Shown in pieces: positions 17,449 through 42,773 of a DNA stretch of 64,000 nucleotides. The translations under genes and the position numbers were made by a program. Below the pieces are notes generated by a model. That model was not told the DNA's origin, ran no database searches, and saw nothing but the letters and a program-made list of their open reading frames with translations. This DNA comes from Pseudomonadota bacterium (GTDB lineage: Bacteria; Pseudomonadota; Gammaproteobacteria; Steroidobacterales; Steroidobacteraceae): the NCBI GenBank assembly GCA_021792755.1, contig JAJYUA010000017.1, positions 1 to 64,000 of the forward strand, written 5' to 3'. The stretch's first letter is position 1, and each line of letters opens with the position of its first letter.

Positions 17449-19353
17449 CTATGAGCTCTGCTGCCGGGTAAGGACCACTTCAGGCGGTTGCGGCAGGCGA
17501 GGCGCGAACAACTCCTCGCTCAGAACGCTCTCCAGTACCTGCCTGGGACCGCTGCGGCTGAAGGTGTGATCGGCACTGTCTATGATGCGGATGCGGCAGC
17601 CCTCACCCAGTCGCTTGACCATCGATCCGGCCTCAATTTTCAGCAGCTCGATGCCGGGCTCGTCCCGCGCAAAGACGAACACCACGCGCACGCCGCGTGC
17701 AACGATGCCTTGCAGCTCTCGTGCGAGGTCGCGGCGAAGACCGATCCCGAGCGACCGGGCGCAGTCGCGCAGCCACGACTCGAGCGCGAGCAACGGTCGC
17801 TGGTAGTAGATCTTGACGATGCGCCAGACGTTCACCCGGCCCGTCAGAAATCTCCTCCATGCGGCCGCGGAGAAGATCCTCTCGCGGTAAATCACCGGGT
17901 TGCGAACGACCTCCGCCAGTTGCAACCCCTCGAGGCTCATGCCTTCCTCCCAGTAGTAGTTCTGTGGGTTGACCATGAGCAGACGATCGAGCGGCAGTCC
18001 CGCGGCCGCGGCGCGCAGCGCATGATAGGCCCCCGAGCAAAGGCCCCCGAGCGTGACCTCGCGGATCCGGTAGCGCGAGCGCATGAATTCGACCGCCGCG
18101 CGGATGTCCTCGAGCGCATCGGGTGGAAACACCTGATTGTCGGGCCGGCCCCGCCGGGCGTCGCTGTCGCCCAGGCCCGCCAGATCCAGTCGCAGCACGT
18201 AATAGCCGCTGCGCGCCCAACGCCGGGCCAGGGAGACGTACATGCGGCTTGCGCCGATGTGATAGTCCGCTCCGACGTTAAGAAGGATCACCGCGCGGCG
18301 GCGAGGCTCGTCCTGGCGCGGCTCGGTGACGATGCCGAAAAGGAGACTATCGGCATCCATGACCACCGGGCGCTCCCTGAGCAAGGCGCGCGGCGAGTCA
18401 TCGTGGCCCGGCAGCAGCAGCTGCCCCTCGGTCGAGGGGTCGCCGGCGACATCACCTGTTGCGAGGCCGCTCGTTCCCCTCGCGTCGGTACGGGACACGC
18501 AATGCCTCGAAAGCCACTCGCGCGTTGCCTGCAGCATTTCCCTCGCCGGTTTCGCGAACTGCGGCGCCGTCATCAGCATCTCGACAAACCCCGACAGCAC
18601 CCGATACTCGGTGGGCACGCCGCTCGCCCGTGCTGCCGCGGCCCAGTCGCGTGCCACGGGCAAGTCGCTGCGGTCGATCACCAGCAGGCTCGCGAGGCCT
18701 GCAAGGTCCGTCACCGATCCGTCGGTCCGCGGCAGGCTCGAGAGGGTCGCGTCCGAGAGAGGATAGCCATTCACCTCCATGGCACGCCGATTCGAGGCAG
18801 AGGATCGACTGCTCGGCTGGCGCGCCGACAAGGCAGCCTCGGCGGCGCAAGCCGCCAGTTCCAGGGTGCGGACCTCCCGCAAATAGCGGCGGCCGCTCAA
18901 CACGGGAGCGACGAGCGCCAGTGCGTGCGCCTCGCACTGTCTGGCCGCCCGGATCGCGAGCAGCGCCCCGAGCCTGAACCCCATCAGGCATACGCGGCTG
19001 ACGCCGGTGCGCCGGCGCAACTCCGCGACCGCGTGGGCAATGTCCTGCGTCCAGACCTCGATCTGATCGGCATTCGGGTCGATATCGTCCGAATCACCGG
19101 TGCCCAGATAATCGAAGCGAAGGGCCGGGATGCCCAGATCGGCGGTAGCCGCGGCGAAGGCGCGCAGGCTCCTGTGGCCGCACAATGCCTCGTAGCCGAA
19201 GGGCTTGCACAGAACAGCCCCCCACTGCGAGCAGGGGACCTGCGAGGACCGGTGCAGCCACCCGAACAAGCCGCGCTCTCCGGACCGAAAATAAAGTGGC
19301 ATCTGGGAGCCGGCGGCCGCGGCAACCGCCCCCTCGATGGCATTGGCGTTCAT
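17449..19353 (-). CDS. Tandem alpha/beta-hydrolase protein
   Basis: The protein (634 residues from ATG 19353) contains two alpha/beta-hydrolase domains. The first (about 18-290) resembles serine-aminopeptidase-like or exosortase-associated hydrolases. At its nucleophile elbow the sequence is GFRLGA with Arg127 where Ser or Cys is expected, so it is probably not an ordinary esterase. The second (about 335-625) has RLDLAGLGDSDARR and an elbow GGLCSGA where Cys may be the nucleophile, with a late Asp/His pair (FARDEPG, DSADHTFSR). ATG 19353 is preferred to the frame opening at 19494 because it avoids overlap with the upstream SnoaL-like gene. It may release or remodel a thioester- or lipid-linked intermediate. 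Confidence 0.72.
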   Translation of the reverse strand: MNANAIEGAVAAAAGSQMPLYFRSGERGLFGWLHRSSQVPCSQWGAVLCKPFGYEALCGHRSLRAFAAATADLGIPALRFDYLGTGDSDDIDPNADQIEVWTQDIAHAVAELRRRTGVSRVCLMGFRLGALLAIRAARQCEAHALALVAPVLSGRRYLREVRTLELAACAAEAALSARQPSSRSSASNRRAMEVNGYPLSDATLSSLPRTDGSVTDLAGLASLLVIDRSDLPVARDWAAAARASGVPTEYRVLSGFVEMLMTAPQFAKPAREMLQATREWLSRHCVSRTDARGTSGLATGDVAGDPSTEGQLLLPGHDDSPRALLRERPVVMDADSLLFGIVTEPRQDEPRRRAVILLNVGADYHIGASRMYVSLARRWARSGYYVLRLDLAGLGDSDARRGRPDNQVFPPDALEDIRAAVEFMRSRYRIREVTLGGLCSGAYHALRAAAAGLPLDRLLMVNPQNYYWEEGMSLEGLQLAEVVRNPVIYRERIFSAAAWRRFLTGRVNVWRIVKIYYQRPLLALESWLRDCARSLGIGLRRDLARELQGIVARGVRVVFVFARDEPGIELLKIEAGSMVKRLGEGCRIRIIDSADHTFSRSGPRQVLESVLSEELFAPRLPQPPEVVLTRQQSS

Positions 19354-19411
19354 TCTTTCGCAGATCTTAGCGGAGTCGCCGCCTGGCGACAGCACTGCTT
19401 TCCGTACCGCA

Positions 19412-19819
19412 TCAAGCCGGCACGAACACCTCCACGTACGAGACAATGTGTCCCTCGCGTTCCTCGATGAGATCGACCAGCTGAGTCGGGACACTCAGCC
19501 CCGTGATCCGCGAGTGAATGTCCGCCCGCCAGTGCACCGCTGCCTTCGACCCATCGATGACGATTGACACAATCTCGTAGTGCGCGAAGCGGAAGGCCTT
19601 GACGAGCACCGTCAGCCAGGACCGTATCTCGCCGCTCCCCCGTGCAGCGATGGCAATCGGCTTGCCGTCGCTGGAGCCGGAGATTTTGAACACCGCCTCG
19701 GCGCAGAACAGGTCGCAAAGCCGCTCAAGCCCCCCCGCCGCCCGGGCGGCGTAGAGCTCCCGCAGAACCCCTTCGAAGCGGGCCCGCTGCTCGGTCAGGA
19801 AATCGGGCGTTTGCACCAT
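19412..19819 (-). CDS. SnoaL-like / NTF2-fold protein
   Basis: The 135-residue protein has the length and pattern of the NTF2-like superfamily: a long N-terminal helix region (ARFEGVLRELYAARAAGGLERL), the strand-loop LFCAEAVFKISG and late strands KAAVHWRADIHSR and HIVSYVEVFVPA. SnoaL-like folds serve as isomerases, cyclases or hydrolases in natural-product pathways, or as ligand-binding proteins. Active residues cannot be assigned. It lies 10 nt after the esterase gene and 58 nt before the tandem hydrolase, in one minus-strand operon. Confidence 0.65.
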   Translation of the reverse strand: MVQTPDFLTEQRARFEGVLRELYAARAAGGLERLCDLFCAEAVFKISGSSDGKPIAIAARGSGEIRSWLTVLVKAFRFAHYEIVSIVIDGSKAAVHWRADIHSRITGLSVPTQLVDLIEEREGHIVSYVEVFVPA

Positions 19820-19829
19820 GGCAATGCTC

Positions 19830-20765
19830 TCAGTGCATCAGGGCCCGTATATCCGTGCCCATCGCGCCATAGGCCGTACGGGCCTGTGGGATCACCCCGC
19901 CGAGTCCGTAAAACAAGTGGACCATGCCGGGGTGGCAGCGGTGGCTCACCCTCACCCCTGCCCGTCCGAGACGCTCGGCATATCGCTCCCCTTCGTCTCG
20001 TAGCGGGTCGCACTCAGCCGTATGGATGCAGGTCGGCGGCAACCCCTCGAGGGTAGGAGCGCGAAGCGGAGAGACCCTGGGATCGGCCGGATCCGCGCAC
20101 GGGCCGAGGTAATGGGCGAGATCATGGGCGAGAGTCTCCCGATCGAGCAGATAGCCGGCCGCAAAAGCGCGCCGCGATTCGGTCTCGGCGGCGTAGTCGA
20201 GAATCGGACAAAGCAGGAACTGAAACGTGAGCTTGACAGAGCCTTCCGCCTGGATCGCCCGACAGGCGACCGCCGCCAGAGTGGCGCCGGCGGAATCGCC
20301 GCAGATGCCCAGTCTGCCCGGATCGATACCGAGCTCCACCGCATGAGCGGCCGTCCACCGCGTCGCCGCGCACGCATCCTCGAGCGCCGCCGGGAAGCGG
20401 GCCTCGGGGGCGAGCCGGTAGTCCACCGACACGAGACGGGCGCCGCTCGCGTTGGCGAGCGAGCGGCAGATGCCATCATGAGTGTCGAGGCTCCCGGCCA
20501 CCAGACCTCCGCCGTGAAAGTAGACGAGTCCCGGAAGAACGGAACGGTCAGCGTCGCGCGGCGTGTATATCCTCGTGCGAAGCGTTCCTCCGGGCCCGCC
20601 AATCTCCCGCTCCGCCACGCTCGCGACCCTCTCCGGCTCGCCTCCAAGGCTCAAGAGCTGCTCCAGAGATGCTCGGCGCTGTCCGATGTCGAGCGAGCCG
20701 ATGCTGCGCGGCGTCGCGGCGGCCAGCCTGTCGAGAAATCGCCTGACGTGCGCATCAAGGGGCAT
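19830..20765 (-). CDS. HSL-family alpha/beta-hydrolase (esterase)
   Basis: The esterase (311 residues from ATG 20765) has the oxyanion-hole HGGG motif (84-87), the nucleophile elbow GDSAG with Ser158, a late Asp in ECDPLRDEG and His in HPGMVHLFYGLG. This gives a complete triad of the hormone-sensitive-lipase family. It acts on small acyl esters or could offload a carrier-bound product. A longer frame reaches 21143 inside the neighbouring ligase gene, but the family begins at the ATG chosen here. It starts 14 nt after the amino acid:carrier-protein ligase gene ends. Confidence 0.85.
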   Translation of the reverse strand: MPLDAHVRRFLDRLAAATPRSIGSLDIGQRRASLEQLLSLGGEPERVASVAEREIGGPGGTLRTRIYTPRDADRSVLPGLVYFHGGGLVAGSLDTHDGICRSLANASGARLVSVDYRLAPEARFPAALEDACAATRWTAAHAVELGIDPGRLGICGDSAGATLAAVACRAIQAEGSVKLTFQFLLCPILDYAAETESRRAFAAGYLLDRETLAHDLAHYLGPCADPADPRVSPLRAPTLEGLPPTCIHTAECDPLRDEGERYAERLGRAGVRVSHRCHPGMVHLFYGLGGVIPQARTAYGAMGTDIRALMH

Positions 20766-20779
20766 CGCGGCGCGCCGCT

Positions 20780-21739
20780 CTACAGGCCGAGCGCGAGCTT
20801 GGTCGAGGTCGGCCAGCGCAATGGATCCAGGCCGTGGATGCAGAAGAGCGCCACCACGATCCGGTCCATCCCGAAGGCGACGCAGCCGGTATGCGCCGCC
20901 TCCCCGCGCGTATCGCGCAGATCCCAGGCGAGACCGAAATGATCGCGGTGATAGTTGAAGCTCATGCATGCGGTCGGGGTCGCGCCGCCGCGGTACGGCA
21001 CCAGCAGCTCGAACTTCAGCGACTGCTGTCGCTGGCTCACGGCCATCACCTGACCGACGCGTCCGAAGAACGGATCGCTCGCCACATCGATCTGACAGGG
21101 CAGCCCGAGCTCCTGCGCGAGAGCCCGGGCGCGGGCCATCCATTGATCGCGGAAGGTCTGAATCGCCTCGGGCGAGCCGATGCGCACGAACTCTCGCATG
21201 CGGAAGGACTGCAGCCGATCGAGCGAGCGCGAGGGCTCGTGCCGGAAGCAGTCCGCGGCGACGTCGAAGATCCAGCCGTCCTCGGGCAGCGGCCCCCGGG
21301 CGGCTGCAAGCGGGTAGAGCGGATAGCAGGCGGCCGGCGAGAGCACGAGGTCGGAAGCCGCGAGCGAGCCCGTCCAGTCCCCGCCCGACTCATGAGCGTC
21401 CGCCGCCGCCCGGATCTGCGCCTCGCTGCCGTGCAGCGCGCAGACGCAGCCGAGAAGGTTCGGAAAGCTCTTGAGGTATCCGGACCTCTCGAGCTGTGCG
21501 CGGCTCATGACGGGTGGAAAACGCAGCACCTCCGCGCGCGGATCGCACTCGCGCGTGAGCAGCTCATCGAGACGATGCAGCACGTCCTGGTAGAGCGCGC
21601 TGCGGGCATAGACACCGTCGACTCCGAGGAGTTGAAACAAGGCGCGTCGCACGGGCGCCTCGGGATCGTCCGCGCGGCTCGCTTCGCTTGGCGCCGCGGT
21701 CTGCGCCAGGGCGGCGGCCGACTTCGGTTCGGCAGACAT
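20780..21739 (-). CDS. Amino acid:[carrier protein] ligase (SerRS-like)
   Basis: The 319-residue protein is a class II aminoacyl-tRNA-synthetase-like enzyme without a tRNA-binding domain. Motif 2 is at CFRHEPSRSL (Arg166) and motif 3 at GMDRIVVALF (Arg293). Cys138, Glu183 and Cys286 are spaced 45 and 103 residues apart. That is the spacing I recall for the active-site zinc ligands of the characterised Bradyrhizobium homologue, which activates glycine or alanine and loads it on the phosphopantetheine arm of a small carrier protein. The likely partner is the carrier at 24114. It follows the acyl-CoA-dehydrogenase-like gene by 18 nt and precedes the esterase. Amino-acid specificity is inferred only from the family. 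Confidence 0.88.
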   Translation of the reverse strand: MSAEPKSAAALAQTAAPSEASRADDPEAPVRRALFQLLGVDGVYARSALYQDVLHRLDELLTRECDPRAEVLRFPPVMSRAQLERSGYLKSFPNLLGCVCALHGSEAQIRAAADAHESGGDWTGSLAASDLVLSPAACYPLYPLAAARGPLPEDGWIFDVAADCFRHEPSRSLDRLQSFRMREFVRIGSPEAIQTFRDQWMARARALAQELGLPCQIDVASDPFFGRVGQVMAVSQRQQSLKFELLVPYRGGATPTACMSFNYHRDHFGLAWDLRDTRGEAAHTGCVAFGMDRIVVALFCIHGLDPLRWPTSTKLALGL

Positions 21740-21757
21740 CGATCGACCCCCTCGGAC

Positions 21758-22963
21758 TCAATCGCTCACTCGGGCGGCAACCGGCACCACCAGGGACGTG
21801 CCGGCGATACTCGCGAGAATGCGGTCGTTGTTGATCATCAGAGGCGATGAGAGCACATCGCGCAGGTGCCGCTCGACGCTGAACTCGCCATCGCAGCGGT
21901 AGCCCGCCAGGCCGCAAACCCGCAGCGCGGTGAGCACCGTGGCCACGGCGAGCTCGGAGGCCTCGACCTTGGTGAGCGTGATCTGCGCCTGGAAGTCGAG
22001 CGCGCCGAGCGCGGCCGGATCATCCATGCGGCTCTCGTAGGCGCGCACCGAGTTGGCCAGCAGGCCGCGCAGGGTTGCCAGCGTCGACAGCGCCTTGGCG
22101 AGCTGCGCCGCCCCCGGTGGCAGCTGTCCGCCGCTCTTGCGCGAGGTCTGGCGCACGAAGGCCTGCGCGCGCGCCGTGGCGCCCGCGGCAATCCCCGCCC
22201 ACACCGCTCCCCAGAGGAGGTGGGCGAACGGCACCATGGTACGCGCGTGGATCGACTCGTACGGCTCCGGCAGGATCTGCTCGCGTGTGCCGCTCGCGCG
22301 CAGGGTGTACCCCTCGCTGCAGGTGCCTCGCATGCCGAGCGTGTTCCAGCCCTGAATCGGCGTGAGGTCGTAATCCTCCTTGAGAAAGGCGATCAGCACT
22401 TGATCGGAAGGCGCGGCATCGGCTGACCTGCGGGCGGTCGTCACGATCCCGTCGGCCGCTGCGCCGTAGGAAATCACGCTCGCCTGACGCTGCAGGCTGA
22501 TCCGCTCATCGCGGTATTCGACCGCAGCCTCGCTCGAGCGGACATTGCCCCCGCCCTGCCCCTCCGTCGTGGAGGAAGCGAGCAGCAGCTGCTCGCTAGA
22601 CAGGCGCCGCAGCAGCCTCTCGAGGGCGCCGCCCTGCGCGTGTCGCACCAGACAGGCCACCTTCACCTGGTGCATCGCGAAGATCATGCCGGTGGAGGAG
22701 CATGCCCGAGCCAGTCGGTAGCAGACATCGGACACTTCGCTCACCGAAGCCCCTTCGCCCCCGAGAGTGCGCGGCACGAGCATGCCGAGAAGCCGGTGCT
22801 CCTTGATGGCCGCGAACGCCTCCGCCGGAAACCGTGATGCGGCGTCGACCTCGGCCGCATGCTGGGCGGCGACGTCGGCGGCAGCCGCGGCCCTGTCGAG
22901 CAGGGTTGCCTCAACAATCCCGCAACACTGACCGGCGGCGGGCAAGGCGGATGAGTCGTTCAC
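21758..22963 (-). CDS. Acyl-CoA dehydrogenase-like flavoenzyme
   Basis: The protein (401 residues) has the acyl-CoA dehydrogenase layout. An N-terminal helical domain (FAAIKEHRLLGMLVPRTLGG) is followed by a beta domain with SSTTEGQGGG and GWNTLGMRGTCSEGY, and a C-terminal helical bundle with KVEASELAVATVLTALRVCG. FAD is the expected cofactor. Relatives in pyrrole and related pathways oxidise aminoacyl groups bound to carrier proteins, which fits its place directly before the amino acid:carrier-protein ligase. GTG 22963 is chosen because GGGGAG lies 8 nt upstream; the frame itself extends to 23062. It is first in the minus-strand operon running to 17449. Confidence 0.82.
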   Translation of the reverse strand: MNDSSALPAAGQCCGIVEATLLDRAAAAADVAAQHAAEVDAASRFPAEAFAAIKEHRLLGMLVPRTLGGEGASVSEVSDVCYRLARACSSTGMIFAMHQVKVACLVRHAQGGALERLLRRLSSEQLLLASSTTEGQGGGNVRSSEAAVEYRDERISLQRQASVISYGAAADGIVTTARRSADAAPSDQVLIAFLKEDYDLTPIQGWNTLGMRGTCSEGYTLRASGTREQILPEPYESIHARTMVPFAHLLWGAVWAGIAAGATARAQAFVRQTSRKSGGQLPPGAAQLAKALSTLATLRGLLANSVRAYESRMDDPAALGALDFQAQITLTKVEASELAVATVLTALRVCGLAGYRCDGEFSVERHLRDVLSSPLMINNDRILASIAGTSLVVPVAARVSD

Positions 22964-23121
22964 GTTAATGGCTCCCCATCCGGCGTGGCCGGACCCCGTG
23001 GGATGACATGCGCATTTCTTAAGTAGAGACTCCGCTCTAGGTTTTAGTTCTGTTCGGAGCATAGTATAGGCGCATCGCAGCCTGCCGGACCGGGATTGCC
23101 GTCACGGAGCTTCCACAGCCC
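22964..23121. promoter_or_regulatory. Divergent promoter region with an inverted repeat
   Basis: This 158-bp gap lies between the flavoenzyme operon (minus) and the MetA-like/carrier operon (plus), so both promoters must lie near it. It is A/T-richer than its flanks at 23015-23075. An inverted repeat, TAGAG-N6-CTCTA, lies at 23024-23039 and could bind a dimeric regulator of both units. Sequences such as TATACT (minus strand) and TATAGG (plus strand) near 23060-23070 are possible -10 elements; no good -35 was found. Confidence 0.35.
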
Positions 23122-24117
23122 ATGCCGCTCACGATCGAACACCGCGGCACACCCCGGCGCGCCACCGACAGCGCGATCGTGGTCGCGCTCGTGAACAATA
23201 TGCCCGATCCGGCCCTCGAGGCAACGGAAAGCCAGTTCTGCGGCCTGCTTGCCGCGGCGGCCGGCGCGCGCGAGGTGCGCCTGCGCCTGGTCTGCCTGAC
23301 CGAGGTGCTGCGGGAGCCCGAGACGCGCGCGCGCATGGCGGGACGCTACTTCACGCTCGAGAGGGCACTGGCCGACCCGCCGGATGCGCTGATCGTCACC
23401 GGCCTCGAGCCACGGGCGCCGGCCCTGGAGGATGAGCCGTATTGGAGCCGGATGTGCCAACTGCTCGAGTGGGCACAGCGGCATACCGCCTCGAGCATCT
23501 GGTCCTGCCTCGCGGCGCATCTGGCCGCGCAAGCTCTGCACGGGGTCCGCCGCCATCGCCTGCCCGAGAAGCGCTTCGGGGTCTTCGCCCACGCTCATCT
23601 GGCCGGACATCGATTGCTGCAGGACGTCGGGCACCCACTCCTGACACCCCACTCCCGCTGGAACGACCTGCCCATTGAGCCGCTGCGCGCCGCCGGATTC
23701 GAGATCCTCAGCGCCTCGCCCGAAAGCGGCGCGGACCTCTTCGTCCACGCCGGCCGCAGCCTGTTGGTAGGATTTCAGGGCCACCCGGAGTACGAGGAGA
23801 CGACGCTCCTCAAGGAATACCGCCGCGACGTCGGCCGCTTCCTGCGAGGGGAGCAGACTGTCTGGCCCGGATTGCCTCAGGCATACTTCGCACAGGACGC
23901 ATGGGTTCCCCTGACAGCCTTTCGGGAACGCGCAGAGCGGCGGCGGGATCCGGCTCTCATGGCGGAATTCCCGACCGAGGCGCTCGTGAAGGCGGTGCAC
24001 GCCCGCTGGCGCCCCGCGGCGATTGCGATCTACCGAAATTGGCTCGGCGTGCTGGCGGAAATGAGAGGCCGGCGCCGGGCGAGCATTTCCGTACCGGTAC
24101 GATGGTGTGGAGCATGA
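23122..24117 (+). CDS. MetA-like homoserine O-acyltransferase family protein
   Basis: The 331-residue protein belongs to the homoserine O-succinyltransferase (MetA/HTS) family, which has a class I glutamine-amidotransferase-like fold. The catalytic cysteine is Cys129 in SSIWSCLAAH, and His221/Glu223 lie in GFQGHPEYE. In classical MetA an early MPKK-type segment supplies a catalytic lysine; here the matching stretch reads NNMPDPALEATE, so that lysine is absent. The stop overlaps the first carrier-protein start (ATGA), implying coupled translation. The protein may transfer an acyl or aminoacyl group from the carrier rather than from CoA. An ordinary methionine role is less likely in this context but not excluded. 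Confidence 0.75.
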   Translation: MPLTIEHRGTPRRATDSAIVVALVNNMPDPALEATESQFCGLLAAAAGAREVRLRLVCLTEVLREPETRARMAGRYFTLERALADPPDALIVTGLEPRAPALEDEPYWSRMCQLLEWAQRHTASSIWSCLAAHLAAQALHGVRRHRLPEKRFGVFAHAHLAGHRLLQDVGHPLLTPHSRWNDLPIEPLRAAGFEILSASPESGADLFVHAGRSLLVGFQGHPEYEETTLLKEYRRDVGRFLRGEQTVWPGLPQAYFAQDAWVPLTAFRERAERRRDPALMAEFPTEALVKAVHARWRPAAIAIYRNWLGVLAEMRGRRRASISVPVRWCGA

Positions 24118-24401
24118 GTACCAGCGAAGCCGACGCAGATTGCACCGCACTCCGTACGCCCCGCGAGCGGCTGCTCGCCCTCGTGAGGCAGATCCTCGGC
24201 GCGCCCGCCGCGAGCCGGCCGCTGCCGATCGATGTGCGCCTCTCGGAGCTCGGCATCAGCTCGATCAAGATGGTGAGCCTGATGCTCGCCATCGAGGCGG
24301 AGTTCAACCTCACCATCCCTCAGCAAGCGATCACCCCGGAGAACTTCCAATCGATCGCCTCCATGGAGGCGATGCTCGAGAGCATCACTCGCCTCACCTA
24401 G
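24114..24401 (+). CDS. Acyl/aminoacyl carrier protein (first carrier)
   Basis: The 95-residue protein has the four-helix carrier-protein pattern. The phosphopantetheine site is Ser50 in LGISSIKMVSL, where the usual Asp before the serine is replaced by Ser49. The downstream helix MLAIEAEFNLTIPQQ and the final helix SIASMEAMLESI fit the fold. It is the obvious partner of the SerRS-like ligase at 20780. The start ATG 24114 overlaps the stop of the MetA-like gene by 4 nt; an in-frame ATG at 24102 is possible. It converges on the PLP decarboxylase gene. Confidence 0.85.
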   Translation: MSTSEADADCTALRTPRERLLALVRQILGAPAASRPLPIDVRLSELGISSIKMVSLMLAIEAEFNLTIPQQAITPENFQSIASMEAMLESITRLT

Positions 24402-24446
24402 GCACGAGCGCCGGTCGGCACGCGCTTGCGGCCCTGTGTGTTCTGT

Positions 24447-25874
24447 CTAACTGCCCGCGCCGCGCGCCGCTTCGAGCCCCGCTACGAGTTCCTCGACATC
24501 CTCGAGCGATGTCTCCCCGTGCGTCGCGCAGATGCGGACCACCTCCCGTCCGACGTACGTTGTGACCGCGACCCACGCTCGGCCAGAGGCGAGGACCCTG
24601 CGGGCGATCTCCCGGACGGGCGCCGAGCCCTGCGGCGGCACCACGCACAGCACGGCCAGCCTTGAGTCATTGGCGACCGACCAGCCGAGGACGATGAGTC
24701 TTTCCTTGATCCGCTCGATCACCGCCACCGCGCGCTCGAGGTGCGCGGCATAGCCGCTCCACCCGGCCGCGGCGAGCGACAGGAACAGCCTCAAGCCCAT
24801 GAAGCGCCGCGACCATTGCAGGGTGTTCAGGTACGGATCGATGCTCGAGGCGGTGGATGGCATGAAATCGGCGCCCACCTGGAAGGCATCGCTCAGGACT
24901 TTCGGATGCCGGGTGATCAACATGCCGCAGCCCATGGTCGTGGCGAGCCACTTGTGCGCATCGATCGTCACCGAGTCGGCGAGCTCGATGCCCGCGAGCT
25001 CCCCGCGCAGCCGCTCGGAGCACAGCGCCGCCCCGCCCCATGCGGCGTCGACGTGGTACCAGAGCGCATGCTCGCTTGCGATGTCCGCGCAGGCTGAGAG
25101 CGGATCGACCATGCCCGCCCCCGTGGTGCCGGCCGTTGCCGAGATCAGGATCGGGACCACGCCCCGCCGGCGATCCTGCAGCACCGCCTCGGCCAGCCCC
25201 TTCACATCCATGCGCCCCAGGCTGTCGGTGCCGATGAGCCGCAGCGCCTGCCTGCCGATGCCCGCCTGGTGCGCGATCTTGTGCCAGGCGGGCTGGCATT
25301 CCCGCGAGGTGTACATCGCGACGGGACCGGCGAAAGCGCGCACGCCTTCGGTGGCGAATCCCCGCTGCGCACGGGTGAGCGCGCACACGAGCGCCGTGTA
25401 GTTCGCCTCGGAGCCGCTCGTCGTGAAATGTCCGGCCGCCTGCGCGGGAAGCCCCGCGCGCTGCGCGAGCGCGCCGATGACATGCGCCTCGATCGCAACC
25501 GGCGCGGGCGAGGAGCCGGAGCTCGCCAGCTGCGGGTTGAAGCTGCCCGAGATGCGGTCGGCGCACTGGGACGGGAAGGTCGGCGCGGGATTGAACAGGC
25601 CGAAGTAGCGCGGATGCGTCATGTGCACCGTGCCGTGCTCCAGGCAGCCGATGGCCCAGTCGATCAGCTCCTCGATGGGCCGAGGCGCCGCGAAATCGAA
25701 AGCGGCGAGCTCCCGGCGCAGCTTGTCCTGGTCGATGTCCGGCGTCACCGGACCTCGCAGCAGCCGCTCGGCGGCATCCGCGAGGGCGCGGGTGAGATAA
25801 TCGTCGAGCCGCTCTCGAGCCTCCCGCCCGGGAAAGAGCGCCGGCGGGGGGGCGGTGAGCGCATCGCCGGCCAC
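24447..25874 (-). CDS. Group II PLP-dependent amino-acid decarboxylase
   Basis: The 475-residue protein belongs to the aromatic-amino-acid/glutamate decarboxylase group. The pyridoxal-phosphate lysine is Lys308 in TIDAHKWLAT, and the cofactor-binding Asp lies in HVDAAWGG (about 275-280). The N-terminal block MTHPRYFGLFNPAPTFPS is typical of the L-2,4-diaminobutyrate/aromatic decarboxylase branch. It removes CO2 from an amino acid to give an amine, or may act as an aldehyde synthase; the substrate is not clear. It is last in the minus-strand unit that begins with the second carrier and starts 9 nt after the MetY-like gene ends. Confidence 0.85.
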   Translation of the reverse strand: MAGDALTAPPPALFPGREARERLDDYLTRALADAAERLLRGPVTPDIDQDKLRRELAAFDFAAPRPIEELIDWAIGCLEHGTVHMTHPRYFGLFNPAPTFPSQCADRISGSFNPQLASSGSSPAPVAIEAHVIGALAQRAGLPAQAAGHFTTSGSEANYTALVCALTRAQRGFATEGVRAFAGPVAMYTSRECQPAWHKIAHQAGIGRQALRLIGTDSLGRMDVKGLAEAVLQDRRRGVVPILISATAGTTGAGMVDPLSACADIASEHALWYHVDAAWGGAALCSERLRGELAGIELADSVTIDAHKWLATTMGCGMLITRHPKVLSDAFQVGADFMPSTASSIDPYLNTLQWSRRFMGLRLFLSLAAAGWSGYAAHLERAVAVIERIKERLIVLGWSVANDSRLAVLCVVPPQGSAPVREIARRVLASGRAWVAVTTYVGREVVRICATHGETSLEDVEELVAGLEAARGAGS

Positions 25875-25883
25875 GGTCCGGCC

Positions 25884-27164
25884 TCAGCGTCCAACCGCGG
25901 CGTCGAGCGCCTGGTCGAGGTCTGCGAGGATGTCATCGATATGCTCGATACCGACGCTGAGTCTCAATGTCTCCGGCCCGATGCCGGCCAGGCGCTGCTC
26001 CTCGGCGGACATCTGCCGGTGCGTCGTGGAGGCCGGATGGCAGGCGAGCGACTTGGCGTCCCCGAGGTTCACCAGGCGCTTGAAGAGCTTGAGCGCGTCG
26101 TAGAAGCGCGTGCCGGCGTCAAATCCCCCGCGGATGGCGAAGGTGAGCAGCGAGCAGGTCCGGCCGCCGAGGTACTTCTGCACGAGAGGGAAGTAAGGGC
26201 TCTCGGGAAAGCCGGCGTAGCTCACCGAGGCGACCCGCGGGTCATCACGCAGGAACTCCGCCACACGACGAGCGTTCTCGACGTGGCGCCCCATCCTCAG
26301 CCCGACCGTCTCGATCCCCTGCAACAGCAGGAAGGCGCTGAGCGGCGAGAGCACCGAGCCCATGGTGCGCTGGAAGACGCTGCGCGTGCGGCCGAGGTAG
26401 GCGGTCGGTCCGTAATGCTCGCTGTAGACGAGGCCGTGGTAGGACTCATCGGGCTGCGTCAGCATCGGATAGCGCGCCGCATGGCGCTCCCAGGCAAACC
26501 GGCCGCTGTCGATGATCACCCCTCCCATCGTGGTGCCGTGGCCGCCCAGAAACTTCGTGAGCGAGTGGATCACGACGTCCGCGCCGTGATCGATCGGACG
26601 AACGAGGATCGGCGTCGGCACGGTGTTGTCCACGATCAGGGGCACTCCCGCGCGGTGCGCCACCTCGGCCAGCGCCTCGATGTCGCAGACGTTGCCGGCG
26701 GGATTGCCGACCATCTCGCAGAACACCGCCCGGGTGTCCGCGTCGATCAGCGCCGCGAGCGATTCGGGACGATCGTCCCGGGCGAAGCGCGTGCGGATGC
26801 CGAGCTTCGGCAGGATGTGGGCAAACAGCGTGTGCGTCGTTCCGTAGAGCTGCGGCACCGAGACGATGTTGCGGCCGGCCTCCGTCACCGTGAGCACGCT
26901 GTAGTGCAGCGCCGCCTGGCCGGAACTCACGCAGAGCGCATCCATCCCGCCCTCGAGCAGCGCCATGCGCTTCTCGAGCACCGCGACCGTGGGATTGGCG
27001 ATGCGCGTATAGCGGAAGCCGTCCACCTCCAGGTCGAAGAGCGCCGCGCCGTGCTCGGCGCTGTCGAAGGAGTACGCCACGGTCTGGTAGATCGGCACGG
27101 CCACCGACTTGGTAGCCGGGTCCGCATCGAAGCCCCCGTGCAGGGCGATGGTCTCGGGTCGCAT
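25884..27164 (-). CDS. O-acetylhomoserine sulfhydrylase-like PLP enzyme (MetY type)
   Basis: The 426-residue enzyme of the Cys/Met metabolism PLP family has its cofactor lysine at Lys204 in HSLTKFLGGHG. The opening ETIALHGG, the block YQTVAYSF and the late TTHRQM segment (where a serine is usual) point to O-acetylhomoserine (thiol)-lyase. It would replace the O-acyl group of an activated homoserine with a sulfur or other nucleophile. Together with the MetA-like protein at 23122 it suggests an activated-homoserine step inside this cluster. ATG 27164 is chosen because GAGGGAA precedes it by 2 nt; an ATG at 27191 would overlap the reductase gene. Confidence 0.85.
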   Translation of the reverse strand: MRPETIALHGGFDADPATKSVAVPIYQTVAYSFDSAEHGAALFDLEVDGFRYTRIANPTVAVLEKRMALLEGGMDALCVSSGQAALHYSVLTVTEAGRNIVSVPQLYGTTHTLFAHILPKLGIRTRFARDDRPESLAALIDADTRAVFCEMVGNPAGNVCDIEALAEVAHRAGVPLIVDNTVPTPILVRPIDHGADVVIHSLTKFLGGHGTTMGGVIIDSGRFAWERHAARYPMLTQPDESYHGLVYSEHYGPTAYLGRTRSVFQRTMGSVLSPLSAFLLLQGIETVGLRMGRHVENARRVAEFLRDDPRVASVSYAGFPESPYFPLVQKYLGGRTCSLLTFAIRGGFDAGTRFYDALKLFKRLVNLGDAKSLACHPASTTHRQMSAEEQRLAGIGPETLRLSVGIEHIDDILADLDQALDAAVGR

Positions 27165-27171
27165 GGTTCCC

Positions 27172-27894
27172 TCAGGCTGTGTTGCCGGCATCCACGGTCA
27201 GGGTGATGCCCGTGATGTTGTGCGCCGCCTCGCTCAACAGGTACTCGACCGCGCCCGCGACGTCGGCGGGCTCGGCCATGCGGCGCAGGGCGCTGCGGCG
27301 GGCGATCTGCTCGCGCCCGCTCTCGCCGAGCTCACGGGTCATCACCGTGTCCACGAAGCCCGGCGCGACGGCATTCACCGTGATACCGAGCGGACCGACC
27401 TCGCGCGCCAACGAGCGCGTGAAGCCCTCGAGCGAGGCCTTGGTGGCCGAGTAAGCGGACAAGGCTCTGAAGCCGTTCGCGGCCACGATGCTGGTGATGT
27501 TGACGATGCGCCCGGCGCCGGCGCTCATCATCGAGCGCACGACGTACTTGGTGAGGATGATCGGGGCCAGCGTGTTCAGGCGCACCAGCGACTCGATGTC
27601 CGGATCGCGCATCGTGGCGAGCAGCCCGCCGATGCCGAGACCGGCGTTGTTGACGAGCCCGTAGAGCGGGCCTGCTTGCCGGCGCAGCTCACGCACCAGC
27701 TCTTTGAGCTCGGCGGTGTTCGAGAGGTCGAAAGCCCGAAACACAAGCCGCTGCGGGTGCGCCGCAATCAGCGCCCGCAGCTCATCTGACTCGGACCGCG
27801 CGATCGCGATCACGCGATAGCCGCCGGCAGCGAGCCTCGAGGCGATGGCGAGCCCGAGGCCCCGGCTTGCGCCCGTGACCAGCACGTTACGCAT
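27172..27894 (-). CDS. Short-chain dehydrogenase/reductase (FabG-like)
   Basis: The 240-residue SDR has the cofactor motif TGASRGLG (7-14), the NNAG motif and the catalytic Ser135, Tyr148 and Lys152 (YSATK). The sequence is close to 3-oxoacyl-carrier-protein reductases, including the C-terminal block LSEAAHNITGITLTVDAG. It probably reduces a carrier-bound keto group using NAD(P)H. The ATG at 27894 lies inside the 3' end of the ligase gene (8-nt overlap). A frame running back to 28068 is antisense-like filler and was not used. Confidence 0.87.
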   Translation of the reverse strand: MRNVLVTGASRGLGLAIASRLAAGGYRVIAIARSESDELRALIAAHPQRLVFRAFDLSNTAELKELVRELRRQAGPLYGLVNNAGLGIGGLLATMRDPDIESLVRLNTLAPIILTKYVVRSMMSAGAGRIVNITSIVAANGFRALSAYSATKASLEGFTRSLAREVGPLGITVNAVAPGFVDTVMTRELGESGREQIARRSALRRMAEPADVAGAVEYLLSEAAHNITGITLTVDAGNTA

Positions 27895-29374
27895 TGCCCG
27901 GGCCTTCCTGAGCCTCGGCCCCGCTCTCGCGGGGCCTGAGGCCGCCACGCTTGCGCGTCTCCTCATGGATCGCCCCCGGCGATGGGCTCGAGCGCACCAG
28001 CTTGCCGGAGGCCGACACCTCGAGGGAGGGAACGATGCGGATGAGCGCAGGAACCTTGTGCGCGGCAAGCGAGGAGCGGCATGTCCCGAGGATCTCCTCG
28101 CGGATGCGCTGCTCGCAGATCGGTTCCCCGGCCCCGCCGGCCGGCGGCTTGGTGAGCACGACGTCCGCCGCCACGACCGAGCCGGTGATGGGGTTGCGCC
28201 GAGCCTTGACCAGGGACATGCGCACGGCCGGATGGGAGTTGATCACGGCCTCGACTTCCTCGGGATGAACCTTGAAGCCTCCGACGTTGATGACGCCGCC
28301 GCTGCGTCCCAGGAAGTAATAGCGCCCGCCACGCACCTCCAGCCGATCTCCCAGATCGACGAAGCCTTCGGCGTCCTTCAGGGCAGGAGCATCCTCGCCG
28401 AGATAGCCCGAGGCGTTCCCGGGGGACTTGATCCGCAACGTGCCGCGGCTCACGTCGATCTCGACCCCTTCATCCGACAACCCGACGAGCGAGGCCGGAA
28501 AGCCCGCCAGCCCGTCGCGCACCTCGAACCCCACCCCCGCCTCCGTGGAGGCGAATGCGTGGGCGACGACGGCATCCGGCAAGGCCTCGCGCAGCGCGTC
28601 GAGAATCCCCTGATCGGCGATCTCGCCGGACAAGCGGACATAGCGGGGCGAGAGGCGCCCGAGCGCCCCGCTCATCAACGCCTTCCGCCAATGCGAGGGG
28701 GTACCCGAGAGGTGGGTGACCCCTGCCGCGGCCGCCCGAGCGAGAAACGCCGCGGTCGGCTCACCGGGGCTCGAGAAGACCATGGAGCCGCCGCAAACGG
28801 CCCGCAGGAAGATCTGCAGGCCCCCATAGCGGCGGATGTCGTAGAAGGTGCTCCAGACAGGGGATGCGGCTACCTCCGCTTCAGGGCGCGCAAAGGCGCT
28901 CACGAGGCTCGCCAGGGTGTGCGCCACCAGCTTCGGCGCGCCCGTCGTGCCGGAGGTCAGCAGCACCCACTGCGTCTCGCACGTCGCTTGACGTGTCAAG
29001 CCGGCCCGCTGCGGCTCGGGAGTCGCCGGCACATGGAGCACGCAGCCGACACCGGCCGGTGGCTCCTCCCCTGTGTGCCCGCCGATCCAGGTATCCGCCT
29101 GCACAGTGCGGATCACGTGCGCGCGGTGCTGCGGCGCGAGGTCCGGCGAGCACAGCACCATCCGCCCCGCCACCCCGTCGAGCTCGATGAGAAGGACGGC
29201 CGCCGTCAGCTGATCGCGCACGCCCACCACCACCGATCGTCCACGCAGCGTCTCCAGGCGCCCGCTCAGGCACGATCGGCTCGAGAGCTCGGCGAGTGCA
29301 ACGGTCCGCGAAGCAGCGAGCAGCCCGCCGGCGGAGCGCGCCGCGACCTGGGCAAGCGATTCGCGCGCACTCAT
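27887..29374 (-). CDS. AMP-forming acyl/aminoacyl ligase
   Basis: The 495-residue protein is an ANL-superfamily adenylating enzyme. It has the ATP-binding P-loop LLTSGTTGAPK (138-148), the ASTEAG motif (about 275-280), GFVDLGDRLEV, the hinge region GRSGGVINVGGFKV (356-369) and the C-terminal catalytic Lys458 in SASGKLVR. It activates a carboxylic acid as the adenylate and transfers it to a thiol, most likely the phosphopantetheine of the carrier gene 5 nt upstream. The N-terminal 130 residues are shorter and more divergent than in acyl-CoA ligases, as is usual for stand-alone carrier-loading ligases. The substrate is unknown. Confidence 0.85.
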   Translation of the reverse strand: MSARESLAQVAARSAGGLLAASRTVALAELSSRSCLSGRLETLRGRSVVVGVRDQLTAAVLLIELDGVAGRMVLCSPDLAPQHRAHVIRTVQADTWIGGHTGEEPPAGVGCVLHVPATPEPQRAGLTRQATCETQWVLLTSGTTGAPKLVAHTLASLVSAFARPEAEVAASPVWSTFYDIRRYGGLQIFLRAVCGGSMVFSSPGEPTAAFLARAAAAGVTHLSGTPSHWRKALMSGALGRLSPRYVRLSGEIADQGILDALREALPDAVVAHAFASTEAGVGFEVRDGLAGFPASLVGLSDEGVEIDVSRGTLRIKSPGNASGYLGEDAPALKDAEGFVDLGDRLEVRGGRYYFLGRSGGVINVGGFKVHPEEVEAVINSHPAVRMSLVKARRNPITGSVVAADVVLTKPPAGGAGEPICEQRIREEILGTCRSSLAAHKVPALIRIVPSLEVSASGKLVRSSPSPGAIHEETRKRGGLRPRESGAEAQEGPGNA

Positions 29375-29379
29375 AAAGG

Positions 29380-29619
29380 TTATGTCGCAGACTTCTCGTA
29401 CATTCTGACGAAATCACCGAAGGTCACCGGGAAGGCGTCCGCCGTGTCGAATGGGTCGTAGCCCAGGACATCCTCGAGTCGCGCCGCGATGAGCGCGAAG
29501 CTCAGGGAATCGAGGCCGCTCTCGAGCAGCTTCAAGTCATCCGTGAGGGGGGCAAGCTGGCGCCGCTGCTCGCGGGCGACATCCTCAAACAGCGTCGCGA
29601 TGGTCGATCTCACCTGCAT
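29380..29619 (-). CDS. Acyl carrier protein (second carrier)
   Basis: The protein (79 residues from ATG 29619) has the classic phosphopantetheine motif LLESGLDSLSF with Ser38. It shares helix pattern with PCP/ACP domains but little sequence with the carrier at 24114. The start is set by AGAGGAAG 8 nt upstream; an ATG at 29658 in the same frame would add 13 residues. It is the first gene of the minus-strand unit with the AMP-forming ligase, the reductase and the two PLP enzymes, and is probably loaded by the ligase. Confidence 0.85.
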   Translation of the reverse strand: MQVRSTIATLFEDVAREQRRQLAPLTDDLKLLESGLDSLSFALIAARLEDVLGYDPFDTADAFPVTFGDFVRMYEKSAT

Positions 29620-29853: not shown

Positions 29854-30747
29854 CTACGGGCTGCGCCGGCCCTCGGGCGCAGCGCGCCGCCGCTCGGTTG
29901 CCCCATAGGTCGAGTAGCCGTAGTGGGTGTAATAGCCGTCCCCCCCCGTGAAATGCGCATCGTTGAGCACCAGGCCATACACCCGGGACTTCTCGAGCAG
30001 CGCGATGGCATCGAGCAGCGCCTGGCGGGGGGTCCTGCCGGCTCGCGCCACCATGAGGATCTGTGCCGGAATCTGCTTCAGCGCCCGCGCCTCGCTCGAG
30101 ACAAGGAGCGGCGCCGAGTCAAGCAGCACCATCCGCCGCGGATAGCGCCCGGTGAGCCGGGCGCAGATCTGCGCCATGCGTGTACTGGCAATCAGCTCCG
30201 CCGCCCCCTCGGCGGCCTTGCCGGCGGGCAACAGCTCGAGCCCAGGCACATTCGTCCCGACAACAAGCGATTCCACGTCGATCGTCTCGTCGCCGAGCGC
30301 ATCCATCAGTCCCGGCTCATCCTGCACACCGAAGGTGCGACTGAGATGGGCCTTCGGCACGTCGGCGTCGATCAGAAGCACGGAGACGTCGCGCTCGCGC
30401 GCGATGCTCAGCGCCAGATTCAGTGCGGTGAAGGTCTTCCCCTCCGCCGGCAAGGCGCTGGTGACCAGCATGAGACGGGCGTCGGCGTGGGCCCCTACCG
30501 CGAGGGCCTTCTGGATGAGCGGCCGCTTGATCTCGCGGTAACAGTCCGCGAACCGGGGCTCCTCGCCCGTTTCGGGCAGCTCACCCTGGGCGCGCAACTG
30601 ATCGATATCGATCTCGATGCGGCGGTGCCGCTCCGGCAGGCCCGCCACATCCGACTTGCGCGTATCGCTCAGCTCTTGCGGCCCGGTGCAGCCGCCGGCG
30701 CCGGTGGCCTGCCGCGCCTTGTCCAGGGCATTCTGGATGATGCTCAT
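29854..30747 (-). CDS. Polysaccharide tyrosine autokinase (exosortase-associated type)
   Basis: The 297-residue cytoplasmic BY-kinase of the CpsD/EpsG type has Walker A SALPAEGKTFTALN, Walker A' VLLIDADV and Walker B MVLLDSAPLL. Its tyrosine-rich C-terminus, GGDGYYTHYGYSTYG, is where autophosphorylation occurs in the family. The N-terminal IIQNALDKARQ helix is characteristic of the kinase linked to exosortase/PEP-CTERM systems. It partners the chain-length protein encoded just upstream; the two genes overlap by ATGA. It controls polymer length and export of the exopolysaccharide. Confidence 0.88.
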   Translation of the reverse strand: MSIIQNALDKARQATGAGGCTGPQELSDTRKSDVAGLPERHRRIEIDIDQLRAQGELPETGEEPRFADCYREIKRPLIQKALAVGAHADARLMLVTSALPAEGKTFTALNLALSIARERDVSVLLIDADVPKAHLSRTFGVQDEPGLMDALGDETIDVESLVVGTNVPGLELLPAGKAAEGAAELIASTRMAQICARLTGRYPRRMVLLDSAPLLVSSEARALKQIPAQILMVARAGRTPRQALLDAIALLEKSRVYGLVLNDAHFTGGDGYYTHYGYSTYGATERRRAAPEGRRSP

Positions 30748-32354
30748 GTGTGTACCGCCGGCGTGACGTGCGTACCGCCCAATCTGACCCCCATGTGACT
30801 CAGGATCACGACCGCAATGAACGCCGCGAGGAGACTGGCGAACGCGAACGCGAAGCGTCTCACCTCCCGGCGGGAGACGGCCGTGGTACGCGTTGGAAAC
30901 GCAGAGCCGACCACGGCGACCACCGGAATTCCGGTCAGCCGCTTCAGGGTGGCCGGGGAGTCGACGACCGGACGCAGCCGATTGAGCTGGTAACCCAGGG
31001 CGCCTCCGGCGCCGAGCGCCAGCATCAGGACGAAGGTCAGGAACTTACCGCGATGCGGCCAGACGGGCGCGTAGCTCGCCGCTGGCGGCTGCACGAGCTC
31101 GAAGCGCACGGCGCCGTCGTTGCCGGCCTTCTCGCCGAGCCGCGCCTTGTCATAGCTTGCGAGCAGGGCCGCATACTGTTTTTTGTTGATGGCGTAATCG
31201 CGGCTCAGCTGCGAGTACTGCGCCTCGAGCTTCGGGGTCTTGTCGAGCAGCCGCTGCAGCTCCTGCGCCTTGCGCTGGTGTTGGACGAGCTCCGTGCGCA
31301 GATCCGCGACGGTGACATCCACCTTGTCGAGGGCGAGCTCGGTGCTCTGGTAGACCGGGTTGGCGCTCGCGCCGCTCAGCGCCGCCGCGCTCGCATCCCC
31401 GCGCTTCAGGGCCGCGATCTCCTCGGCCCATCGGTGCTTGAGCGCCGCGAGCTCCTTGCGCGCGGCGATGACCCCCGGGTATTGATTGGTGTACTTGAGC
31501 AGCAGCCGATTGAGGCGCGTGCGCACCTGCTCGATCTGGGAAAGCGTGTTGCCGCCGGCCAGGACGACGCCGTTCGGTCCGACGACGGGCATCGCGTCGG
31601 CCGAGGAGATGGCGACGTTGCCATGCAGCTCACGCTCGAGCTCTTTTCGCTGGCTTTCGGCCACCACCAGCTTCGTTTTGAGGTTCTCGATCGCCCGGTT
31701 CTCGGCCACGAGCTGATCGAAGTAGCCGCCCTGCTCGGTCGGCAGCAGCCCGAAGTGCTCCGTCTTGAACGCCGCAAGGCGATCTTCGGCCGTCTGCAGG
31801 CGGTTCTCGTAGTCGGCGATCTGGGCCTTGAGGAACTGTTGTGCGTGCTCGGACCCCTTCTTGCTGCCGCCGAGCGTTTCGTTGATGAGAGTGCTCGTCA
31901 GCACTTGCACGAGCCGCAGGGCGCGGGCTCGATTGACGTCCTCGTAGCTGATCCCGTAAGTGGTGCCGCCCTGCTCGTCGTTGTCGACCGTGAGCTCGAT
32001 CCGATTCCTCAATGCATCGAGCAGCGCCTGCCGGCGCTCCGGACCGATGCCGCTCTTCGGCAGCGCGCCCACCCGTTCGGCGATCTGACTGAGCTGCGGG
32101 CCGGCAAGCAGCGCCTGGCGCACGTAGTTCAACTCCACGCTCACGTCCTGATTGGTCGCCAGACCCTGCAGGACCGGCTTGAGCGCCGTGCGGGTATCCA
32201 CCAGGACCTTCGCTTGGGCCTCGTAACGGTCCGGCAGGGAAAAGACGATGAGCCAACCGACGAGCGCGATCACGGCAGCCACCGCGAGCGCAAGCCAGCG
32301 GAAGCGCCACACGCCGCGCGCCTGCTCCAGAATCGGGTCGAGCCAGGGACTCAT
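30744..32354 (-). CDS. Polysaccharide chain-length determinant (Wzz-like)
   Basis: The 536-residue inner-membrane protein has an N-terminal transmembrane helix (LALAVAAVIALVGWLIVF). A long periplasmic region with coiled-coil stretches rich in E, K, Q and A follows (about 165-240 and 270-430), then C-terminal membrane segments around FLTFVLMLALGAGGALGY and FAFASLLAAFIAVVIL. The length and GNVAISSADAMP-type inserts fit the family found with exosortase systems. It works with the tyrosine autokinase to set polysaccharide length. The start at 32354 lies 6 nt after a possible 29-codon frame. Confidence 0.87.
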   Translation of the reverse strand: MSPWLDPILEQARGVWRFRWLALAVAAVIALVGWLIVFSLPDRYEAQAKVLVDTRTALKPVLQGLATNQDVSVELNYVRQALLAGPQLSQIAERVGALPKSGIGPERRQALLDALRNRIELTVDNDEQGGTTYGISYEDVNRARALRLVQVLTSTLINETLGGSKKGSEHAQQFLKAQIADYENRLQTAEDRLAAFKTEHFGLLPTEQGGYFDQLVAENRAIENLKTKLVVAESQRKELERELHGNVAISSADAMPVVGPNGVVLAGGNTLSQIEQVRTRLNRLLLKYTNQYPGVIAARKELAALKHRWAEEIAALKRGDASAAALSGASANPVYQSTELALDKVDVTVADLRTELVQHQRKAQELQRLLDKTPKLEAQYSQLSRDYAINKKQYAALLASYDKARLGEKAGNDGAVRFELVQPPAASYAPVWPHRGKFLTFVLMLALGAGGALGYQLNRLRPVVDSPATLKRLTGIPVVAVVGSAFPTRTTAVSRREVRRFAFAFASLLAAFIAVVILSHMGVRLGGTHVTPAVHT

Positions 32355-42705: not shown

Positions 42706-42773
42706 TCTTGTGGCCGGAATCCATTGCCGCCCGGCGCAGGCGCGGACTCGAACGACAACGAGGCAGAAAAGCC

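Follow-up and report, generated by a model that had tools for sequence, protein, structure and literature searches.

The stretch of DNA analysed here (the window, 64,000 nt) comprises positions 1 to 64,000 of contig JAJYUA010000017.1 in assembly GCA_021792755.1, from a member of the Steroidobacteraceae (Gammaproteobacteria); the assembly amounts to 3.76 Mb in 57 contigs and is 96% complete. Between nt 17449 and 29619 the window carries a block of 12 genes, and the data support the view that this is a dedicated, conserved gene set with two carrier proteins, gathered around an amino acid:[carrier protein] ligase. Alpha-, beta- and gammaproteobacteria have subsets of the block around the ligase, with the genes rearranged. 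There is about an even chance that the genes together form a single biosynthetic module, composed of three exchangeable sub-modules (A, B and C), for a small compound derived from an amino acid, and the product of the block is probably a modified amino-acid compound that has not been described. A preliminary description of the window had proposed an undescribed pathway at this place. The conserved and dedicated nature of the set speaks for that proposal, as does the lack of any account of it in the literature searched, but the ligase family itself was already known. No paper describing such a pathway was found in the collection of open-licence papers searched, and no carrier-protein passages were found in PMC10817482.

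The genes lie in three units, as first proposed, with 12 members rather than the ten then counted. Unit 1 (minus strand, nt 23062 to 17449) reads flavoenzyme, ligase, HSL-like hydrolase, SnoaL-like protein and fused hydrolase, unit 2 (plus strand, nt 23122 to 24401) has a MetA-like acyltransferase and the carrier protein ACP1, and unit 3 (minus strand, nt 29619 to 24447) reads ACP2, an AMP-forming ligase, a short-chain dehydrogenase/ketoreductase (SDR), a MetY-like enzyme and a group II decarboxylase dependent on pyridoxal phosphate (PLP). A thirteenth member, a FadD-like acyl-CoA synthetase (nt 35822–37639, plus strand), is displaced from the block by 6 kb in the window. Families were called from Pfam and NCBIfam/TIGRFAM profile matches against curated cut-offs, and the start codons of the fused hydrolase, HSL-like, ACP1, SDR and ACP2 genes were picked by eye. 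Every family named in the preliminary description, from ligase, flavoenzyme, MetA and MetY to the carriers, AMP-forming ligase, ketoreductase, decarboxylase and hydrolases, is present; its 'several hydrolases' are likewise there, the first of them being a fusion of two alpha/beta-hydrolase domains. It had also stated that condensation and ketosynthase domains are missing, and neither hallmark of a non-ribosomal peptide or polyketide assembly line was reported when the block proteins were scanned with Pfam.

The ligase (nt 20780–21739, minus strand; 319 aa) scores 442 bits against model NF005479, above the cut-off of 357, and aligns end to end with Bll0957 of Bradyrhizobium, a protein of solved structure, with 62% identity over 304 residues. 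It has the class II core of a seryl-tRNA synthetase (SerRS) without the tRNA-binding domain, and C138, E183 and C286, the presumed zinc ligands, are invariant among 13 aligned ligases. Amino acid:[carrier protein] ligases, relatives of tRNA synthetases, have been known since 2010, and Bll0957 and its relatives reportedly load an amino acid onto a carrier (work of Mocibob et al. in 2010 and 2013). Judged by its sequence, the window enzyme is a member of this known family and not a new enzyme type. It shares with Bll0957 the presumed zinc-site residues, a nearby carrier and, in Bradyrhizobium loci, the same flavoenzyme neighbour, whereas the window's triad of ligase, flavoenzyme and carrier is set in a larger group with MetA, MetY, a second carrier, AMP-forming ligase, SDR, FadD and decarboxylase. 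The passage on such ligases in a 2022 review states that the biological role of amino acid attachment to carriers is unknown, and assigns no pathway to the family (PMC9437257).

Outside the genus, one genome per species was scanned, and the best 80 of 584 confirmed stretches, many of them from Bradyrhizobium, were compared. One contig was counted twice (L020 = L036), and because many contigs are short the locus counts are lower bounds. The flavoenzyme adjoins the ligase in all 80 loci, and ACP1 (nt 24114–24401, plus strand; PF00550, with the 4'-phosphopantetheine serine kept) occurs in 74; this carrier is the predicted substrate for aminoacylation. The remaining members were found less often: MetY in 29, MetA in 28, the HSL-like hydrolase in 25, FadD in 24, the AMP-forming ligase in 21, ACP2 and SDR in 19 each, the SnoaL-like gene in 18, the decarboxylase in 15 and the fused hydrolase in 2. 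Among the 52 loci of at least 20 kb (matches above 38% identity) the corresponding numbers are MetY 21, FadD 18, MetA 17, AMP-forming ligase 17, ACP2 15, SDR 14, HSL-like 9, decarboxylase 6, SnoaL-like 4 and fused hydrolase 0. Where MetA and MetY are both present (22 loci), FadD accompanies them in 17, the AMP-forming ligase in 16, ACP2 in 15 and SDR in 13. Gene order is highly variable, with 30 order strings in the 49 loci where six or more block genes matched and 19 in the 29 where nine or more did, some strings differing only through contig ends. Judged by contig title, Rhodopseudomonas infernalis and Methylobacterium oxalidis are examples of strains whose block is complete and compact. Genomes with the set in pieces are also seen: the L045 contig has the triad only, while contig L135 of the same genome holds MetA, MetY, FadD, HSL, ACP2, AMP-forming ligase and SDR together, a grouping that speaks for one module, and in the genome of L087 MetA, MetY and FadD stand together on L136. 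Unbiased clustering of the neighbours of 30 chosen block loci added two alphaproteobacterial partners, a protein termed u0 (15 loci; 53/80 by tblastn) and a class IV aminotransferase (13 loci; 17/80). The u0 protein (L056:10985–11860 and relatives, about 290 aa) gave no Pfam or NCBIfam match; it appears GNAT-like by eye from the alignment only, its structure model being too poor to use (pLDDT 65). Two ligase loci of Proteobacterial type stand under actinobacterial titles (L098, Frankia sp. RB7; L035, an Acidimicrobiaceae MAG), and these are either mislabelled or contaminated records, or cases of transfer.

Sixty genomes, that of the window and its relatives, were searched for the ligase; 37 of them belong to the same genus. 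It was matched in 15, all from the genus, and a close ligase (at least 66% identity) was found in 14 of the 37, own genome included. The flanks of 16 same-genus ligase matches carry the same gene set in altered order. The sole ligase of G033 is a 44% copy beside a flavoenzyme gene and a DUF1839 gene, and G027 has both the close and the 44% kind. In the latter genome the 44% copy (L025, G027:C34:75000–94999) has one in-frame stop and lies near split hydrolase 2-like and hydrolase 1-like genes, an ACP-like match and exopolysaccharide (EPS)-type genes. The distribution of the MetA family (PF04204) coincides with that of the close ligase across all 37 genomes: it is present in the same 14, which amounts to 13/13 relatives with the ligase and 0/23 without (Fisher p 4e-10, uncorrected for kinship or incomplete genomes); MetA without a ligase was met in seven genomes of the same order and other families, one of these matches being below the family cut-off.

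The association extends to a sample of 398 Pseudomonadota, own genome included, in which 44 genomes gave a match to the ligase profile and 119 to that for MetA. The 13 genomes with a ligase of at least 470 bits are the same 13 that have a MetA of at least 300 bits, these thresholds having been chosen after the scores were seen. In the 15 genomes with a ligase of 368–430 bits, MetA is either unmatched or scores no more than 140 bits, and one genus (g123) contains both situations, three members having both genes and two a lower-scoring ligase and no MetA match. This bears on the possibility that the genes are unlinked and merely adjacent by chance in a rearranged genome. The three transcription units, and the split or partial state of the block in many relatives, would fit such an origin, but its probability is negligible and it was rejected, because the set recurs in reshuffled form and co-occurs at the level of whole genomes.

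Conservation as a block, which the preliminary description had raised as a question, stands in part: the set recurs and co-occurs per genome, but it is split in seven Bradyrhizobium-type genomes, a finding that touches the scattering of genes which that description named as counter-evidence. In these seven, the ligase triad and a lone MetY-MetA pair lie at separate places; within the 20 kb fetched around the pairs there is no AMP-forming ligase, ACP2, SDR or FadD, and the only other block gene nearby is a distant HSL-like match in two genomes. Further observations weigh against a single module. Sixteen genomes of the phylum sample have a MetA of 282–299 bits and no ligase, and the post hoc thresholds count here as well. 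The 12 non-own genomes with both genes fall in two families, six in one genus. Block-type MetA was found in 13 of 15 locus genomes searched whole, which in itself favours the module, but was missing from those of L048 and L035, the first of which has most other block genes, and it was not seen at the gammaproteobacterial loci L037, L041, L042, L043 and L052. Distances among block proteins correlate at 0.52–0.80, and, with no outside control, these values are not counted as independent proof. Finally, genes for methylthioadenosine salvage (MtnA and MtnP) flank the triad in 39/80 loci, which their record titles all place in or close to Bradyrhizobium, and the scheme proposed below leaves them unexplained; in loci such as L056 and L079 they lie directly beside ACP1.

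These salvage genes lead to the main rival of a single module, in which MetA and MetY, together with methylthioadenosine salvage, would supply methionine by an auxiliary route through sulfur or methanethiol, next to a separate pathway formed by the carrier genes. In addition to MtnA and MtnP and the lone pairs of Bradyrhizobium, it draws on the MetY-like protein (nt 25884–27191, minus strand), which passes the O-acetylhomoserine aminocarboxypropyltransferase (sulfhydrylase) model TIGR01326 (582 bits, cut-off 495), retains the PLP lysine motif SLTKF and is the most conserved block member (67–86% in the tabulated loci). The MetA-like protein (nt 23122–24117, plus strand) matches PF04204 with 193 bits and NF003776 with 354, just below the cut-off of 358. 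Its Cys129, His221, Glu223 and Arg235 are invariant in 11 sequences; in this fold, Cys129 and His221-Glu223 correspond to the catalytic residues and Arg235 to the one that binds homoserine. At the acyl-specificity position, presumably Gly/Glu111 of characterised enzymes, the 11 aligned sequences read R, K, I or L by eye, which argues against the sulfur route. So does the presence, in each of the 12 genomes checked, of separate MetX-like genes. The window genome has one PF04204 gene, several PF01053 genes and MetX-like genes, the best of the last (367 bits) at C2 and another adjoining a PF01053 gene on C34, while all 11 further genomes have a MetX match of 458–493 bits, under a curated cut-off of 500 that no control genome reaches either. 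Moreover, MetA tracks the ligase clade in both the genus and the phylum sample, and in gamma- and alphaproteobacteria MetA and MetY sit inside the block despite differing gene orders. An auxiliary sulfur route seems rather unlikely but is the strongest alternative. That the two are the ordinary methionine genes was rejected for the window's own genome, where, contrary to a counter-reading that the preliminary description itself had named, they are not the usual ones, since within the genus MetA is confined to genomes with the close ligase and MetX-like genes lie elsewhere; for other genomes it is unlikely. Searches of plasmids returned weak, ordinary-looking homologues for MetA and general family members for MetY.

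A second rival regards the block as decorating the neighbouring exopolysaccharide, in the manner of the ligase, carrier, decarboxylase and hydrolase set of exosortase A systems. In the window the block adjoins an XrtA-type tyrosine kinase (nt 29854–30747, minus strand) and a chain-length determinant (nt 30744–32354, minus strand), both non-members in most relatives, as well as WecG-like and WcaJ-like genes and glycosyltransferases. A PEP-CTERM protein (nt 42708–43511) and a legume-lectin-domain protein (nt 3652–5769) are also encoded near the EPS genes. Exosortase matches were found in 10/13 block-bearing same-genus relatives compared to 9/23 others (Fisher p 0.04), and relatives of sub-module C occur in glycan loci (see below). 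The window's own genome, however, has just one weak exosortase-family match (46 bits), and tblastn with the window's EPS-type genes (Wzz, tyrosine kinase, WecG, WcaJ, GT4) matched 3/80 loci and none of the 52 of at least 20 kb. The EPS embedding first described is thus real in the window and in 5/16 same-genus loci, but it is not supported as a general feature, and the tie to exopolysaccharide is local. Among 20 neighbour proteins chosen for scanning, those beside alpha- and betaproteobacterial copies were transporters, a methyltransferase, redox enzymes and similar proteins, plus a single glycoside hydrolase (GH113, L099); of those beside gammaproteobacterial copies, two were signalling proteins. 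An EPS-only role is weakened by these other neighbours and by the unmatched longer loci, and decoration of the polysaccharide appears quite unlikely.

Comparison with the exosortase A accessory set itself gives a similarly mixed result. Models TIGR03098–03101 presumably represent its ligase, decarboxylase, carrier and hydrolases. Both systems have a hydrolase pair, an AMP-forming ligase, a carrier and a PLP decarboxylase in an XrtA-type EPS locus; the block differs in that its proteins all fall below the cut-offs of the hydrolase 1, hydrolase 2 and ligase models, in its group II decarboxylase (PF00282), in having two carriers and in the added amino acid:[carrier protein] ligase. The fused hydrolase (nt 17449–19353, minus strand, in an open reading frame from nt 19494), whose resemblance to XrtA hydrolases 2 and 1 favours decoration, scores 119 of the required 202.75 bits for hydrolase 2 and 122 of 168.45 for hydrolase 1. 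Its nucleophile sites carry arginine in the N domain (GFRLG) and cysteine in the C domain (GLCSG); the invariance of R174 and C486 in all six sequences aligned suggests that the protein may transfer acyl groups or that its N domain may serve as a scaffold. Besides the two block loci, this protein occurs in another type of ligase locus (L113, L115).

The other accessory members are the HSL/LipP1-like alpha/beta hydrolase (nt 19830–20765, minus strand), with its HGGG and GDSAG motifs conserved, and the SnoaL_2-like protein (nt 19412–19819, minus strand; Pfam match), both of the first unit. The group II decarboxylase (nt 24447–25874, minus strand; PF00282) has the motif DAHKW, and the loci bearing it are mostly gammaproteobacterial. 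ACP2 (nt 29380–29619, minus strand) is a PP-binding match, and its partner, the divergent AMP-forming ligase (nt 27887–29374, minus strand), has the motif W.TFYDIRRYGGLQ conserved in 27 sequences and no close characterised relative among solved structures. The SDR (nt 27172–27894, minus strand) was called by profile. The FadD-like long-chain acyl-CoA synthetase passes NF006134 (733 bits, cut-off 625) and lies inside the block in relatives, often so in same-genus loci.

The flavoenzyme (nt 21758–23062, minus strand) has an acyl-CoA-dehydrogenase fold according to both Pfam and a structure model (pLDDT 80), in which the first 50 residues are unordered, so that the true start may lie downstream. 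Foldseek ranks 1–9 for the model are DszC/TdsC monooxygenases (TM 0.71–0.75), followed closely by dehydrogenases (TM 0.65–0.71) and nitrososynthases, while sequence comparison puts dehydrogenases first among the solved relatives. For this reason an oxygenase is a lean and not a result. The C-terminal catalytic glutamate, that of the YEGT motif in acyl-CoA dehydrogenases, is missing, 18 aligned sequences reading MI.NDRI there by eye; where the alternative glutamate, that of isovaleryl-CoA dehydrogenase, would fall in the alignment could not be settled with confidence.

The case for a single module is built on the gene families observed, on their co-occurrence, co-location and reshuffling, and on catalytic residues that are conserved in MetA, in the carriers and in the PLP enzymes; how the enzymes would work together is inferred, from the oxidation of the loaded amino acid and the way in which A meets B to the part played by C and the nature of the compound made. 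In sub-module A, the ligase would adenylate a small amino acid and load it onto ACP1, where the flavoenzyme would oxidise it, perhaps at nitrogen. In B, the MetA-like enzyme would acylate homoserine and the MetY-like enzyme would exchange the acyl group for a nucleophile, giving a gamma-substituted aminobutyrate; homoserine acyl transfer followed by replacement, as suggested in the preliminary description, is compatible with these enzyme families. The MetY-like enzyme may also link the oxidised aminoacyl-carrier to O-acylhomoserine, thereby joining A and B, and in the gammaproteobacterial form the group II decarboxylase may trim the product. The AMP-forming ligase, ACP2, ketoreductase and FadD of sub-module C would prepare an acyl group, carried by ACP2, that is finally attached to the product; the release or transfer step would fall to the hydrolases or, in alphaproteobacteria, to u0.

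The sub-modules are regarded as exchangeable parts because the triad occurs in other contexts and relatives of sub-module C occur in glycan loci. Ligase loci with DUF1839 in Rhizobium, Azospirillum, Mycetohabitans and Methylobacterium have ACP, flavoenzyme and ligase in a row, those of Azospirillum and Methylobacterium also a fused hydrolase related to that of the window, but DUF1839 and GH2 genes replace MetA/MetY and sub-module C, and the ligases are about 50–54% identical. The ACP, AMP-forming ligase and SDR cassette (37–42% identity) is found in glycan loci on plasmids of Qingshengfaniella and Azospirillum brasilense (L138, L139), where it is possibly a sugar-acylation cassette; one of these loci also has a pseudaminate synthase, a KAS III and a flagellin gene. 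Plasmid regions of Burkholderia glumae and Acinetobacter were examined and set aside. On a Priestia megaterium plasmid (L142, NZ_CP085444.1, nt 96294–113313), ACP, flavoenzyme and amino acid:[carrier protein] ligase are accompanied by AcpS, ATP-grasp, alanine permease, alanine racemase, D-Ala-D-Ala ligase and a ComX-like signalling set, and the region resembles a cluster that makes an alanine mimic and protects the producer from it.

A more specific reading of the module is a long shot: that the flavoenzyme adds oxygen to the nitrogen of the amino acid held on the carrier, and that the MetY-like enzyme uses the N-hydroxy group on MetA-made O-acylhomoserine to form an N-O-linked amino acid. Such a product would be canaline-like or homocycloserine-like, the one carbon longer counterpart of the D-cycloserine route. 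In that route a MetX-like enzyme makes an O-acylated hydroxy-amino acid, and an N-hydroxy nucleophile displaces the acyl group in a sulfhydrylase-like PLP enzyme; the block differs in homoserine and in its MetA/MetY-type enzymes, the likeness being one of pathway logic. The Priestia triad with its racemase, permease and D-Ala-D-Ala ligase would suit an alanine-mimic product with self-protection, and lends this reading indirect support from the side. Were this reading true, amino acid:[carrier protein] ligases would for the first time have a biological role assigned to them, in a route that needs no condensation or ketosynthase domains.

Through the block, an orphan ligase is linked to a flavoenzyme that is its constant partner and, within one clade, also to a dedicated homoserine acyltransferase and a PLP-dependent gamma-replacement enzyme. 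For an activity that had been an orphan, there is now a definite list of genes in bacteria that can be cultured (Bradyrhizobium, Rhodopseudomonas, Methylobacterium), and with it a way to approach the purpose of the ligase.

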